Shown here: positions 12,702 to 19,005 of the stretch, piece by piece
Position numbering within the stretch: the stretch's first letter is position 1
Layout of the letters: each line of letters starts with the position of its first letter
Assembly: GCA_001314805.1 (NCBI GenBank)
Contig: LJSY01000025.1
Span: 1-60,066 of the forward strand
Direction of reading: 5' to 3'
DNA: 60,066 nt
Source: Rhodobacteraceae bacterium HLUCCO18
GTDB lineage: Bacteria; Pseudomonadota; Alphaproteobacteria; Rhodobacterales; Rhodobacteraceae
The notes under the pieces: model-generated
What the model was told of the DNA's origin: nothing
The model's database searches: none
The model's input: the letters and a program-made list of their open reading frames with translations, nothing else
Position numbers and translations under genes: made by a program

Positions 12702-13232
12702 TCAGAGGGGCTCAAGGTCGGCCGGGCCGAGCTTACGCAAGCCGAACAGGAATTTCGAGACCGCGACGACGACCGGATAGATCGCGACTGTCACGATCCC
12801 TTGTGTCAGGCTCAGCCCGAGGGACGGCAGGTCGGCCATCAGCAGCCACAGGATGACCCGCTCGGCCAGAACCATGCCGGCCACGGCACCGGCGATGGCG
12901 CCCCATTCCACCAGAAAGGGGAACTCCGTCATCTGAAGGCGCCGGCGGCGCAGGCTTTCGGAGGCGAGGACCGCAAGCGCGGTCCAGAGCCCGGGCGGCC
13001 GCTGGAGCAGGAAATCGGCCAGCAGGAACACGATCACGATCGACAGGATCGGAACCACGGCCGGTTGCCGCAGGAGCCACGCGAAGGTCAGCGCAAGCAG
13101 GAGATCGGGACCGGGCAGGCCGCTTTCGCCAAGCCCCAACGGCAACAGCCGACCGACTATGATGATCCCGCAGAGGGCGAGGAAGATCACCCTGTAGGTC
13201 CAGATATGGCTGGAGGAGGTGGCCGAACTCAT
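12702..13232 (-). CDS. mreD: Rod shape-determining protein MreD
   Basis: This is a small polytopic membrane protein (176 residues, about five hydrophobic segments) of the elongasome that connects MreC to the membrane machinery. Sequence conservation in MreD is low; identification rests on length, topology and exact position between mreC and mrdA. The segment PGPDLLLALTFAWLLRQP and the Arg-rich loop SLRRRRLQMTEFPF are typical of alphaproteobacterial MreD. The start overlaps the mreC stop by 4 bases. Confidence 0.9.
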   Translation of the reverse strand: MSSATSSSHIWTYRVIFLALCGIIIVGRLLPLGLGESGLPGPDLLLALTFAWLLRQPAVVPILSIVIVFLLADFLLQRPPGLWTALAVLASESLRRRRLQMTEFPFLVEWGAIAGAVAGMVLAERVILWLLMADLPSLGLSLTQGIVTVAIYPVVVAVSKFLFGLRKLGPADLEPL

Positions 13233-14179
13233 GGCTGCGCCGCGCTGCTGTTGTCGAGACGGGCTTCGTCCGGCAGGGCGCTGTCCGGGGCGGTCCGGTC
13301 TTCGGTCTCGTCGGGCAGCGGCCAGGGCGGGCCGATCAGGTCGCCGCTGTCGCCGAGCGCCGTGCCCGGATGGCTGCGCATGACCCGCAGGAACTGCAGG
13401 CGGACGAGATCGGCCGCCAGCCGCGCGCGCAGCCGTCCGTCCGTCGTGGCGATCACCTGCCCCACCAGCAGGCCGGGGGGGAACAGTCCGCCGTCACCCG
13501 AGGTGATGATGCGGTCGCCCGGATTCACGTCCTCGCGCGCGTCGATGAAGTCGAGCATCGGCGCCTGCGAATTGTCCCCCATCAGGAGCGCCTGTTGCCC
13601 CGAGGGCTGGATCGTCACCGGGATGCGGCTGTTGCTGTCGGTCAGAAGCAGCACGCGCGACGTCCTCTCGCCCACGCCCGAGACGCGCCCCACGACGCCC
13701 AGACCGTCCATGGTGGCCCAGCCGTCGAGGATGCCGTCGCGGGCGCCCACATTGATCAGGACCGACCGCCGGAAGGGCGAGCCGCTGTCGGCAAGGACAA
13801 GGCCGGTGACGAAGGTCAGTTCGGGGTCGAGCTGCACCCGGTTCAGGTCGAGAAGCCGCGCGTTTTCCTGTTCCAGTTGCAGCGCCGCCTCGCGCCAGGC
13901 GCGCATCTGCTGCAACTCTCGCCGGAGTTCCTGGTTCTGTTCGAAGAGCCGCGCGTAGCTCTGGAAATCGTCGAAGATGCGCGCCACGCCCGTGACCGGT
14001 GCCATGGCCCATTCCATGTTCGGCACGACCCGGTCGACGATGGCCGCGCGCATGCGCTCCACCCGCGGGTTGTCGATCCGCCACAGGATGACCAGCGCGA
14101 TCAGGCAAATGACCAGGACCGCCACCAGCAATCGCCGGACGGGTCGCGCATAGGCGTCGTCGTAACTGTCCCGTGCCAT
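13229..14179 (-). CDS. mreC: Rod shape-determining protein MreC
   Basis: MreC is an inner-membrane scaffold with one N-terminal membrane helix (LLVAVLVICLIALVIL). A coiled coil follows (about residues 75-110, FEQNQELRRELQQMRAWREA), then a double beta-barrel periplasmic domain. Typical motifs are FVTGLVLADSGSPFRRSVLIN, GWATMDGLGVVGRV and GLFPPGLLVGQV. The C-terminal about 40 residues are Asp/Pro-rich. It sits 41 bases downstream of mreB and overlaps mreD, in the usual order. Confidence 0.94.
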   Translation of the reverse strand: MARDSYDDAYARPVRRLLVAVLVICLIALVILWRIDNPRVERMRAAIVDRVVPNMEWAMAPVTGVARIFDDFQSYARLFEQNQELRRELQQMRAWREAALQLEQENARLLDLNRVQLDPELTFVTGLVLADSGSPFRRSVLINVGARDGILDGWATMDGLGVVGRVSGVGERTSRVLLLTDSNSRIPVTIQPSGQQALLMGDNSQAPMLDFIDAREDVNPGDRIITSGDGGLFPPGLLVGQVIATTDGRLRARLAADLVRLQFLRVMRSHPGTALGDSGDLIGPPWPLPDETEDRTAPDSALPDEARLDNSSAAQP

Positions 14180-14220
14180 GGCGCTCCAATGTCAGAGGCG
14201 TGTGCCCCGCGAACGGAGGG

Positions 14221-15643
<1,423 letters not shown>

Positions 15644-17206
15644 TCAACCGACGTCCTTGTAGCTGACCTCCCGCTGGTCCGAGCCGAGCTTTTCCTTGCG
15701 CACGATCATGCGGTTGAGCGCGTTCACGTAGGCCTTCACGCTGGCCACGACGGTGTCGGTATCCGCCGACTGGCCCGTGGCGATGCGCCCGTCCTCCTCG
15801 ATCCGCACGGTCACCGTGGCCTGCGCGTCCATGCCTTCGGTCACTGCACTCACCTGATAGAGGTTGAGAACCGCCTCGTTGGGGTAAAGCGCCTTGACCG
15901 CGTTGAAGGCCGCGTCCACCGGCCCGTCACCCTGTGCGGTGGCCTGCTTGTCCTCGGTCCCGACGCGCAGCGTGATGTCGGCCGACTGCGGCGCCTCGGT
16001 GCCGCAGATCACGCGCAGGAACTTCAGCTCGAGGTGGTCGTCCTGGTCGGCGGCGGCGGCATCGGTCACCAGCGCGATCAGATCGTCGTCGAAGACCTCC
16101 TTCTTGCGGTCGGCCAGCGACTTGAAACGCACGAAGAGGTCGTTGAGCTGGTTGTCGACCATGTCGAAGCCAAGGTCCTTGAGCTTCGCACGCAGCGCCG
16201 CGCGGCCCGAATGCTTGCCCAGCGGCAGGGACGTCCCGGCGAGGCCCACATCCTCGGGCCGCATGATCTCGAACGTGTCGGCGCTTTTCAGCATACCGTC
16301 CTGGTGGATGCCGCTTTCATGGGCAAACGCGTTCTTGCCGACGATGGCCTTGTTGGGCTGCACGCCGAAGCCCGAGACCGTCGCCACCCGGCGCGAGATA
16401 TGCATGATCTTGGTCGTGTCGATGCCCGTTGTGAACGGCATGATGTCATGGCGCACCCGCATGGCCATCACGACTTCTTCCAGCGCCGTGTTGCCCGCGC
16501 GTTCGCCCAGCCCGTTGATCGTGCACTCGATCTGCCGCGCGCCGCCCGCCACAGCCGCCAGCGCGTTCGCCGTCGCCATTCCGAGATCGTTGTGGCAGTG
16601 CGTGGCGAAGACCACGTCCTCGCCGCCCTCGCAGTCCGCGATCAGGCGGCGGATCAAATCGGCGCTTTCCACTGGCGCCGTGTAGCCCACCGTGTCGGGG
16701 ATGTTGATCGTCGTGGCACCCGCGCGGATCGCGATCTCGACCACGCGCTTGAGGTAGTCCCATTCCGTCCGCGTGGCATCCATCGGCGACCATTGGACGT
16801 TGTCGCAGAGGTTGCGGGCGTGGGTCACGGTTTCGTGGATGCGGTCGGCCATCTCGTCCATGGTCAGGTTCGGGATGGCCCGGTGCTGCGGCGAGGTTCC
16901 GATGAAGGTGTGGATGCGGGGCGATTTCGCGTGGCGCACCGCCTCCCAGCAGCGGTCGATATCCTTGAGGTTGGCGCGCGCCAGACCGCAGATCGTGGCG
17001 TTTTTCGCCAGTTGCGCGATTTCCGAGACGGCGGCGAAATCCCCGTCCGAGGCGATGGGAAAGCCCGCCTCGATGATATCGACGCCCATCTCGTCGAGGA
17101 GTGCCGCAATCTCGAGTTTCTCGTCATGGCTCATGGTGGCGCCGGGGCTCTGCTCGCCGTCGCGCAGGGTGGTGTCGAAGATCAACACTCGGTTTTCGGT
17201 GGTCAT
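15644..17206 (-). CDS. leuA: 2-isopropylmalate synthase
   Basis: LeuA condenses acetyl-CoA with 2-oxoisovalerate, the first committed step of leucine synthesis. The HMGL-like TIM barrel starts with FDTTLRDGEQSPG. The metal-binding His pair is in FATHCHNDLGMA, and NGLGERAGN and HESGIHQDGML are present. The C-terminal regulatory domain (about residues 390-500) is the leucine feedback site. Length is 520 residues, typical. The ATG at 17206 is preceded by AAGGA at a 9-base spacing (17220-17216). A leucine-rich leader peptide and competing RNA structures lie upstream. Confidence 0.96.
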   Translation of the reverse strand: MTTENRVLIFDTTLRDGEQSPGATMSHDEKLEIAALLDEMGVDIIEAGFPIASDGDFAAVSEIAQLAKNATICGLARANLKDIDRCWEAVRHAKSPRIHTFIGTSPQHRAIPNLTMDEMADRIHETVTHARNLCDNVQWSPMDATRTEWDYLKRVVEIAIRAGATTINIPDTVGYTAPVESADLIRRLIADCEGGEDVVFATHCHNDLGMATANALAAVAGGARQIECTINGLGERAGNTALEEVVMAMRVRHDIMPFTTGIDTTKIMHISRRVATVSGFGVQPNKAIVGKNAFAHESGIHQDGMLKSADTFEIMRPEDVGLAGTSLPLGKHSGRAALRAKLKDLGFDMVDNQLNDLFVRFKSLADRKKEVFDDDLIALVTDAAAADQDDHLELKFLRVICGTEAPQSADITLRVGTEDKQATAQGDGPVDAAFNAVKALYPNEAVLNLYQVSAVTEGMDAQATVTVRIEEDGRIATGQSADTDTVVASVKAYVNALNRMIVRKEKLGSDQREVSYKDVG

Positions 17207-17300
17207 GTCGGTCTGTCCTTAGCTGCTTGGTGGTGTGTCCTCGGCGCTGATCCTCCCCTGAGCGGTCGCGCCGAATGGCACGCTCAGAGGCGGCTAAGGA
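17207..17300 (-). promoter_or_regulatory. leuA leader: predicted leucine-responsive attenuator/SD-sequestration element
   Basis: In the leuA leader RNA the segment UCCUUAGC (17300-17293), inside the Leu codon run of the leader peptide, is perfectly complementary to GCUAAGGA (17223-17216), which contains the leuA Shine-Dalgarno. Two further mutually exclusive stems are possible: GAGCG (17285-17281)/CGCTC (17264-17260) and TCGGCGC (17274-17268)/GCGCCGA (17247-17241). A ribosome stalled on Leu codons would mask 17300-17293 and free the Shine-Dalgarno. A ribosome that finishes at the stop (17284) would let the pairing form. The complementarity is seen directly; the mechanism is inferred. Confidence 0.7.
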
Positions 17301-17370
17301 GCAGAAGAGCAGGCAGACCCGTCCGCACGCGAAGCGCCGGCAGGGTCGGGATATGGGCATGCCTGATCAT
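17284..17370 (-). CDS. Leucine leader peptide upstream of leuA
   Basis: This is a 28-codon frame from an ATG at 17370 to a TGA at 17286-17284, ending 77 bases before leuA. Eight of 28 residues are leucine and the C-terminus reads LPALLLLSRL, with four consecutive Leu codons. This is the classical composition of an amino-acid attenuation leader. Leucine leaders ahead of leuA have been predicted in other alphaproteobacteria. No strong ribosome binding site precedes the ATG; a TATTTT box about 7 bases upstream raises the possibility of a nearly leaderless transcript. Confidence 0.8.
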   Translation of the reverse strand: MIRHAHIPTLPALRVRTGLPALLLLSRL

Positions 17371-17399
17371 GGACCCGGAAAATACCGGACGCGTCGCGG

Positions 17400-17435
17400 A
17401 AGAAAAGCCCCAATCGGGTCAGTGCGTCTGACCCG
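17400..17435 (-). terminator. Hairpin terminator after the glutaredoxin-MauE gene
   Basis: CTGACCCG and CGGGTCAG (17415-17422/17428-17435) form an 8-bp stem with a 5-base loop directly after the stop codon. On the minus strand ATTGGGGCTTTTCTT follows. It fits an intrinsic terminator that insulates the leuA leader from upstream transcription. Confidence 0.55.
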
Positions 17436-18188
17436 TCAGAGGGCAAGCTTTGCGAAGGTCCAGACACCCATGCCCATCATGAACAGGTTTTCGGTCAGCG
17501 ACACGAAGCCCAGCGGCACGTTCGAGTCGCCGCCGACGCAGGCGCATTTGAGTTCGCGTTTCTCGATGTAGACGGCCTTGAAGACGGAAACCGCGCCCAC
17601 CGTCCCGATGAACAACGCGACCGGAGCGGATATCCACGGCAGCACGGCGCCCGCCATCAGCACGCCCGCCAGCGCTTCGCCGAAGGGATAGACGCGGCCG
17701 TATGGCACCCAGCGCCGGGCGAGCAGGTCGTAATTAAGGAACATCGTCGAGAAGCTTTCGACATCCTGCAGCTTCTGGATCGCGAGGATCGCCATGGAGA
17801 GCGCCACGAAAAGCTCCAGCGTGCGGATGCCGACCAGATCACCCGTCATCCCCCAGGCGATCGCCAGCGCCAGTCCCACCGCGACAGCGAAGATGGCGAT
17901 GACAGGCTGGTAACTCGTGTCGTCCTCGCCCTTCACGTCGTCGCCCAGCCATTCGCGAAGGGCGTCGTAGCCGCCGATCCGCTCGTCACCGATCCAGATC
18001 TGCGGCGTGGTCGGAACGCCGTGCTTCTCCATGAAGGCTTCGGTCTCCTCCCGCGTCTTCAGGCCGTGATCGTCCACCTCGTAGCCCTCGGCCTCCAGCC
18101 GGTGCTTGGCCTTGAGGCCAAAGGGGCAGAGGTGGTCCTCCATCATCATCCGGTAGAGCGTGGCGGTCTTCGCGGTGTCGCGGGGCAT
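17436..18188 (-). CDS. Glutaredoxin-MauE membrane fusion protein
   Basis: The N-terminal about 85 residues form a glutaredoxin-like domain, with CPFG in place of the dithiol CPYC and the cis-Pro region GVPTTPQIW. Four or so membrane helices follow (IAIFAVAVGLALAIAWGM onward), resembling the MauE/DoxX redox-associated membrane family. A CxC motif (KCACVGGDS) lies near the C-terminus. The fold suggests transfer of reducing or oxidising equivalents across or at the membrane; partners are unknown. The ATG at 18188 gives 250 residues. The single-Cys glutaredoxin site is atypical for a classical reductase. Confidence 0.75.
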   Translation of the reverse strand: MPRDTAKTATLYRMMMEDHLCPFGLKAKHRLEAEGYEVDDHGLKTREETEAFMEKHGVPTTPQIWIGDERIGGYDALREWLGDDVKGEDDTSYQPVIAIFAVAVGLALAIAWGMTGDLVGIRTLELFVALSMAILAIQKLQDVESFSTMFLNYDLLARRWVPYGRVYPFGEALAGVLMAGAVLPWISAPVALFIGTVGAVSVFKAVYIEKRELKCACVGGDSNVPLGFVSLTENLFMMGMGVWTFAKLAL

Positions 18189-18285
18189 GGTCGGTCCTCG
18201 TGTGTTTGCAGGACAACGCAAGGAAGCGACTTTTGGTTCGATCGGCGTGCTTGCCGCGACGCGTCACCGGGCCTAGCCTTGCGGC

Positions 18286-19005
18286 ATGTCCGATGCAGGC
18301 CGCAGAACCGCGATCGTCACCGGCGGCGCCGGGGGTATCGGGCGCGTGCTGTGTGCGCGGCTCGCCGCAGAGGGCTGGCGCGTCATCGCCGTGGATCGCG
18401 ACGCCGGGGCGCTCGCCGCGCTGCCCGACGGCGTCGAGCGGCGGGAGGTCGATATCTCCGACGAGGCCGCCGTCGCCGCCTGTTTCGACGTGCTCGGCCT
18501 CGACCGGCTGGACCTGCTGGTGAACAATGCCGGGATCGCGCATCCGGATGTCGGCGGCCCGCTGGACCGGCAGAGCCTCGACACCTTCCGCGCCTATATC
18601 GACAGCCATCTGACCGGCGCTTTCCTGATGACCCGCGCCGCACTTCCCGCACTGCGCGCCGCGAGGGGCGCCATCGTCAACATCTCCTCGACCCGCGCAC
18701 TCATGTCCGAGCCGAATTCCGAGCCCTACGCCGCCGCGAAAGGGGGGCTCGTCGCGCTGACCCATGCGCTCGCCATCAGTCATGGGCCCGAAGTGCGCGC
18801 CAACGCGATCCTGCCGGGCTGGATCGTGACCGACAAGCATGGAGACCTGAGGCCGGAGGATCACGCCCAGCATCCCGCGGGCCGGGCTGGCACGCCCGAG
18901 GACGTGGCCGATGCCGTGTTCTATCTGGCCAAAGCCGGTTTCGTCACCGGACAGACGCTTGTCGTAGACGGGGGCATGAGAAAGAAGATGATCTATGTCG
19001 ACTGA
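18286..19005 (+). CDS. Short-chain dehydrogenase/reductase (SDR), classical
   Basis: This is a 239-residue NAD(P)-dependent oxidoreductase. The cofactor motif is TGGAGGIGRVL, NNAG appears as VNNAGIAHPD, the catalytic Ser is in INISST, and Tyr/Lys are in PYAAAKGG. GQTLVVDGGM is at the C-terminus. The acidic residue after beta-2 (VIAVDRDAG) favours NAD(H) over NADP(H). The substrate cannot be deduced. It is divergent from the glutaredoxin-MauE gene and convergent with the GST gene, whose stop lies 3 bases away. Confidence 0.88.
   Translation: MSDAGRRTAIVTGGAGGIGRVLCARLAAEGWRVIAVDRDAGALAALPDGVERREVDISDEAAVAACFDVLGLDRLDLLVNNAGIAHPDVGGPLDRQSLDTFRAYIDSHLTGAFLMTRAALPALRAARGAIVNISSTRALMSEPNSEPYAAAKGGLVALTHALAISHGPEVRANAILPGWIVTDKHGDLRPEDHAQHPAGRAGTPEDVADAVFYLAKAGFVTGQTLVVDGGMRKKMIYVD

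Follow-up and report, generated by a model that had tools for sequence, protein, structure and literature searches.

In gamma-proteobacterial Leu/Ilv attenuators, ribosome stalling on cognate codons serves as the sensor, and a U-tract terminator is required. A different arrangement, the LEU element, is found before leuA in Actinobacteria. The excerpted text of Seliverstov et al. 2005 (PMC1262725) describes it as a leader with a run of Leu codons, a base stem formed by the Leu run and the Shine–Dalgarno (SD) sequence, a pseudoknot, and an alternative hairpin. According to the same excerpt, mutations of leader codons in Streptomyces coelicolor had no effect at ilvB, and their effect at leuA did not fit classical attenuation. 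Because the Leu-codon mutations in Streptomyces did not fit codon sensing, its authors favour a protein-binding site; a DEAD-box protein is proposed, with the actinobacterial helicase ML1624 as regulator of the LEU element. As far as the excerpt goes, the working of the element was left open, the stem between codons and SD having been seen and codon sensing judged unlikely (PMC1262725). The leuA leader of Streptomyces lividans is reported to be leaderless and to lack a typical terminator (PMC8079986).

We analysed a 60,066-nt stretch of DNA from Rhodobacteraceae bacterium HLUCCO18 (contig LJSY01000025.1; hereafter, the window), in which a short leader ORF precedes leuA. The product of leuA scores above the NCBIfam leuA_bact cut-off, and its best named matches on plasmids are in Phaeobacter inhibens (77%) and Paracoccus (75–76%), both Alphaproteobacteria of the order Rhodobacterales. 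The features of the element, all on the minus strand, are as follows.

17379..17384 (−): candidate −10 box TATTTT, 8 nt before the leader ATG; weak in this genome
17284..17370 (−): leader ORF, 28 codons plus TGA, 8 Leu; leaderless translation predicted
17293..17305 (−): base stem, 5′ strand, UCUGCUCCUUAGC; inside the Leu-codon run
17281..17290 (−): hairpin P1, 5′ arm, CCUCUGAGCG; contains the leader stop UGA
17277..17281 (−): alternative hairpin P1a, 5′ arm, GUGCC; co-varies with the loop
17268..17273 (−): CGGCGC in the P1 loop; 5′ arm of P2, with 17272–17268 forming the 3′ arm of P1a
17255..17264 (−): hairpin P1, 3′ arm, CGCUCAGGGG; pairs with CCUCUGAGCG
17242..17247 (−): pseudoknot P2, 3′ arm, GCGCCG; co-varies with the loop strand
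17212..17223 (−): base stem, 3′ strand, GCUAAGGACAGA; contains the leuA SD AAGGA
15644..17206 (−): leuA, 2-isopropylmalate synthase (leuA_bact type), 520 aa

In our view, the element probably senses leucine through the ribosome and attenuates leuA at the level of translation, with a construction like that of the actinobacterial LEU element. An earlier sequence-only reading of the same DNA had claimed a 28-codon peptide with eight Leu, four of them in a row, before leuA, and this is what is found at 17370–17284 of the minus strand: the peptide is MIRHAHIPTLPALRVRTGLPALLLLSRL, followed by the stop, with the C-terminal end LLLLSRL and the Leu codons CTG CTT CTG CTT CTG CTC CTT CTC (n = 8) in that order. 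The leader stop and the leuA start are separated by a spacer of 77 nt. The reading was also right that no U-tract terminator is present, as 0 terminator-like sites were found in 17100–17500. A search of Rfam 15 over 16500–18500 gave two matches with E up to 1, neither covering the element, and at gathering score Rfam 15 gave 0 matches in seven loci (four alphaproteobacterial, three actinobacterial). By eye, leuA has a glutaredoxin-like/membrane ORF upstream (17436–18221, minus strand) and rod-shape genes downstream (13229–15273, minus strand); where Paracoccus records match the downstream portion of the window, they carry rod shape-determining protein and mreC annotation.

The leader is read as codons. 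When the leader start is picked solely by a −10-like hexamer, it is in frame, with the stop inside P1, in 118 of the 119 loci whose hexamer exceeds the threshold, and the frame is open in all 118 (118/118). At codons −4 to −7, the entropy of positions 1 and 2 is 0–0.94 bits and that of position 3 is 1.19–1.94 bits. As positions 1 and 2 are far more conserved than position 3, leucine itself is selected in the run. Leu occupies codons −4, −5, −6, and −7 in 125, 100, 119, and 98 of 126 leaders, respectively, and accounts for 58% of the last eight leader residues vs 11% of the remainder. Near the leader end, 97 of the 126 leaders have at least three consecutive Leu and 72 have at least four. The 125 Leu codons at −4 include 76 CTT and 45 CTA; across 29 ORFs of the window, these two have shares of 12% and 1%, respectively, among the codons for Leu. 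Base pairing may be a further cause of this preference. The sole exception to the frame is locus L009 (genome G140), where the ATG nearest the promoter does not share the frame of the Leu run although the RNA arms are intact; either the leader has decayed or the sequencing slipped.

The same Leu codons form one strand of the putative base stem. In the window, TCCTTAGC (17300–17293) is the exact complement of GCTAAGGA (17223–17216), giving the RNA pair UCCUUAGC:GCUAAGGA, and GCTAAGGA ends in AAGGA, 9 nt before the leuA ATG, so that the perfect eight-base complementarity with an SD-containing 3′ arm reported in the sequence-only reading is confirmed. The predicted fold adds UCUG:CAGA and lengthens the stem to UCUG(C)UCCUUAGC:GCUAAGGACAGA, with 12 pairs and one bulged base. 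The fold has a z-score of −2.19 (4 of 200 shuffles equally stable), and in 151 of 2000 mononucleotide shuffles the leader is complementary to the segment downstream of P1 over a run of at least 8. The eight-nucleotide match is therefore unremarkable in a single sequence, and the case rests on comparison across loci.

In this comparison, the duplex energy between the Leu-codon and pre-leuA strands averages −14.49 kcal/mol for strands of the same locus vs −11.83 kcal/mol for strands swapped between loci (z −11.7, 0 of 10,000 permutations). The test covered 123 of the 133 loci of the window's family, with 10 dropped, and preceded the re-anchoring of five loci, one of which was among those dropped. 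A control segment 24 nt further upstream in the same loci showed no co-evolution (z −0.7). After correction of the anchors and de-duplication, in which loci sharing the identical last 14 nt of the Leu strand were collapsed, 128 loci gave 83 clusters and a z of −11.1 (0 of 10,000). Twenty-six loci from other families of the class, which were not de-duplicated and include at least one (L252) with a misplaced P1 3′ arm, gave a z of −5.3 (0 of 10,000). The loci belong to different genera except for congeners, and these values are permutation statistics, not a tree-based count of independent changes. Strand pairs that are altered yet still match include TCTTAGTCGC:GCGACTAAGG, TCCTAACC:GGTTAGGA, and CCTTAGCAG:CTGCTAAGG, and in Paracoccus denitrificans the Leu-run UCCUUCUUC matches, by reading, GAAGAAGGA before leuA. 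By these comparative tests, the predicted base-stem pairing is far beyond chance.

The position of the stem differs among loci. The 3′ end of the longest contiguous helix lies 3–16 nt before the start in 44 loci, 17–30 nt before it in 70, more than 30 nt before it in eight, and less than 3 nt before it in four (126 loci); a further six loci are without any helix of five pairs. The helix overlaps the best SD-like hexamer by at least 3 nt in 29 of the 126 loci. Because 70 of the 126 helices end 17–30 nt upstream and 29 overlap the hexamer, strict masking of the SD by the Leu codons, as the sequence-only reading had it, is true in the window but is not general. In many relatives, the stem would shut the upstream edge of the initiation region, not the SD itself.

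Classical Leu attenuators act at the level of transcription, and here too stalling or release of the ribosome could alter Rho access or RNA polymerase pausing, with the base stem being secondary. The available part of a review (PMC8709942) terms the effect of Corynebacterium glutamicum leuL transcriptional attenuation. We regard such transcriptional control as unlikely for the present element, as there is no intrinsic terminator in the window and the duplex end is at most 24 nt from the start in 123 loci, a place suited to control of initiation.

The two strands of the base stem enclose a hairpin, P1, and two further pairings of its loop. Each of the 10 pairs of P1 is formed in 125–133 of 133 loci, and the leader stop codon stands at the P1 register in 132 of the 133. 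The sequence of P1 is mostly invariant, with few two-sided changes. The P2 strands co-vary (z −10.0, 0 of 10,000 permutations, window's family), and the outermost P2 pair is C–G in 52, G–C in 39, and U–A in six of 132 loci, a few rows of which are mis-anchored. Co-variation is also found for P1a (z −4.7, 0 of 10,000 permutations), and none is found in a control in which GUGCC is set against the 3′ flank (z 0.3). The predicted P2 and P1a pairings are mutually exclusive, as they use one loop strand, and two exclusive co-varying partners would be the pattern expected of a switch. In one locus (L083, genome G109), the P1a arms are changed on both sides (GCACC:GGUGC), leuA is about 300 nt away, and a P2 partner is not clear by eye, possibly a case of hairpin-only retention.

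Strong conservation of the GUGCC motif in the P1 loop would suit a site at which a regulatory protein, the preference of the 2005 authors, or a small molecule binds, with the leader ORF being incidental; the DEAD-box proposal and the S. coelicolor Leu-codon mutations that did not fit codon sensing, both from the excerpt of PMC1262725, point in the same direction. We nevertheless consider such a site quite improbable. Leu is selected with freer third positions and 118 of 119 loci preserve the frame, which counts against a pure RNA site, since such a site would need neither; moreover, the strands of the base stem change together. It is very improbable that the leader merely boosts leuA by translational coupling or re-initiation without leucine sensing, although short leaders are proposed to raise downstream translation in the part of PMC4833913 at hand, because 77 nt from leader stop to leuA start is far for re-initiation and coupling leaves the Leu-run selection and the arm covariation unexplained.

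The leader mRNA also appears to be leaderless. The distance from the end of a TATAAT-like hexamer to the leader start is 7–8 nt in 104 of 119 loci if the hexamer is chosen regardless of frame, and in 94 of 128 if an in-frame start is demanded first. Across leader loci, the commonest −10-like hexamer is TATAGT. An SD-like 4-mer stands ahead of the leader start in four of 128 loci vs 60 of 133 for the downstream leuA (or cupin) start. The spacing of 7–8 nt between hexamer and start predicts a leaderless leader mRNA, with the transcript probably starting at or beside the leader AUG. The window has TATTTT as its hexamer, and scoring for sigma-70 consensus promoters gave none; the promoter is therefore taken to be weaker there.

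Comparison across loci establishes the link to leuA, the leader frame, the selection of Leu, and the pairings of the base stem, P1, P2, and P1a. For the leucine-sensing attenuator, we infer in addition a regulatory effect, its direction, and action on translation (not on mRNA decay or through Rho), along with the leaderless start. Transcription would start at or next to the leader AUG, and ribosomes would load on the leaderless end. When leucine is ample, the ribosome would pass the four Leu codons, terminate at the UGA inside P1, and depart. After its release, P1 and the pseudoknot would form and draw the Leu-codon strand next to its pre-leuA partner, and the base stem would then shut the initiation region of leuA. 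A shortage of charged tRNA-Leu would make the ribosome stall on the Leu run; there it would cover part of P1 together with the 5′ strand of the base stem and keep the initiation region of leuA open.

A ribosome footprint is about 30 nt. In a folding simulation, the ribosome was represented by a block of 30 nt, and folding was nested, so that the pseudoknot was left out. In this model of the window, GCUAAGGA is unpaired in 0.1% without a ribosome and in at most 1% with the A site at codons 2–19. The value is 50% at codon 20, and 55%, 67%, 71%, and 72% with the A site on Leu codons 22–25, respectively; it is 57% at the following Ser, 67% at Arg, 50% at the last Leu, and 43% at the stop. As GCUAAGGA is mostly unpaired with the A site on the Leu codons, stalling on Leu should open leuA. 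The modelled opening begins two codons ahead of the Leu run and extends beyond the Leu codons. Averaged over 119 loci of the family, the modelled opening of positions −20 to −4 rises merely from 0.53 to 0.60. The suggestion of the sequence-only reading that stalling at Leu codons frees leuA thus gains support from the model, in which GCUAAGGA stays closed until the A site reaches codon 20, and the Leu codons and arm complementarity on which the suggestion was built are found in comparison to be under selection and to co-vary, in the family and outside it. The hairpin and pseudoknot enclosed by the stem, with the alternative hairpin, and the leaderless look of the leader go beyond that reading. 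Judged by comparison across loci, the proposed mechanism is well supported.

In the window's family, the element is found before leuA, or before a cupin gene directly ahead of leuA, in 133 of 134 loci, so that peptide and arms are kept in close relatives. leuA was located in 149 genomes of the family and five of the genus (the window's own included); the 134 loci examined comprise 130 of the 149 (30 loci and 100 stretches; 19 were not fetched) and four congeners. Detection was automatic in 121 and by eye in seven, and the remaining five have the element before a cupin-like gene preceding leuA. The only examined family locus without the element is that of genome G029 (L119/L244). A sixth case of an intervening cupin gene, L016, is already among the 121, and its intervening gene matches Pfam Cupin_2. 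The element stays with the first gene, suggesting a cupin–leuA operon under leucine control. Altogether, a cupin-like gene was noted between the element and leuA at L016, L024, L240–L243, L246, and L248, all but L016 by eye. In the window's own genome, the models give one match (strict filters; 15–16 candidates scored per genome). A 27-nt match in that genome (C24, L002) has neither leader nor stem and was taken as chance, not as a second copy.

A model of the family core was positive in 34 of 289 genomes of the class, and the element precedes leuA in 30 of the 30 loci fetched. A broader model, built from 29 of these 30 loci with L272 left out, was positive in 83 of the 289 genomes (68 of 224 genera), with one match each under strict filters. 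All 83 matches (83/83) are upstream of leuA: 77 lie 27–399 nt before it, two (L253 and L266) precede a partial leuA, and one (L291) precedes, by eye, another leuA; three precede a leuA of the leuA_yeast type (G176 by coordinates, L287 by the NCBIfam comparison, and L290 by eye). At L156, L287, and L290, the element stands before a leuA_yeast-type gene as if the leader had outlived replacement of the gene. Among 112 of the 141 genomes with leuA, 77 were positive and 35 negative; nine of the negatives were inspected, and two of these show the element by eye. In a sample of the phylum, 40 matches were found in 249 genomes (the number from other classes is not given), all of them in this class; the model misses one family member, G023, whose element is visible by eye. 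All three named species tried, P. denitrificans and Phaeobacter inhibens (Rhodobacterales) and Methylobacterium bullatum (Hyphomicrobiales), were positive before leuA.

No report of an alphaproteobacterial leuA leader is among the matches listed in the open literature, and an earlier mention in print may exist. What is added here is a class-wide alphaproteobacterial branch, the co-evolution of the codon and pre-leuA strands, the selection of leucine, a pseudoknot with its alternative, and a predicted leaderless start. From this branch, which includes tractable laboratory species such as P. denitrificans, comes independent evidence, with strong covariation, for a double role of the Leu codons, in coding and in pairing. 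With its single stem, the element is a simple design for a translational switch that responds to an amino acid, and it suggests a way in which a large class of environmental bacteria may tune leuA through its RNA.

With the gamma-proteobacterial Leu/Ilv attenuators, the proposed attenuator would share stalling on cognate codons, but their U-tract terminator is absent here (0 found). The leaderless leuL leaders of S. lividans and C. glutamicum likewise place a Leu-rich leader before leuA; in the portions of PMC8079986, PMC8709942, and PMC4046766 consulted, they are classed under attenuation.

The actinobacterial LEU element, as far as the excerpt of PMC1262725 describes it, has in common with the present element the Leu-run leader, the base stem, the enclosed pseudoknot, the alternative hairpin, and the lack of an obvious terminator. 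The pairing of codons with the SD, which the sequence-only reading had singled out as the notable point, is accordingly real but was already described for the LEU element in that excerpt. The two differ in the peptide (for example, LLLGRRDGV vs LLLLSRL here), in the sequence of P1 and P2, and in phylum; leuA in the window is of the leuA_bact type, whereas the actinobacterial loci were found via a protein close to the leuA_yeast type. In the actinobacterial leuA loci, P1 is present in 79 of the 80 fetched, 77 with 10 of 10 pairs, and the best helix between loop and 3′ flank (P2) has at least 7 bp in 69 of 78 loci vs 78 of 390 shuffles. Co-evolution of the actinobacterial base stem was not significant (44 clusters, z −1.3, 1002 of 10,000). 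The broad alphaproteobacterial model matches 11 of 36 actinobacterial loci with E up to 1, four of them with E up to 0.01 (best, 28.4 bits); the 36 were chosen by us from the 80, with most mycobacteria left out. In the 11 matches, the P1 register is exact in eight, within 3 nt in two, and elsewhere in one, and the Leu run itself adds to the score. The layout is common to the alphaproteobacterial and actinobacterial elements, and common descent is suggested, not proven. The chances seem to us evenly balanced that the two belong to one cross-phylum family of leaderless, Leu-codon-operated translational switches, placed before two subfamilies of leuA.
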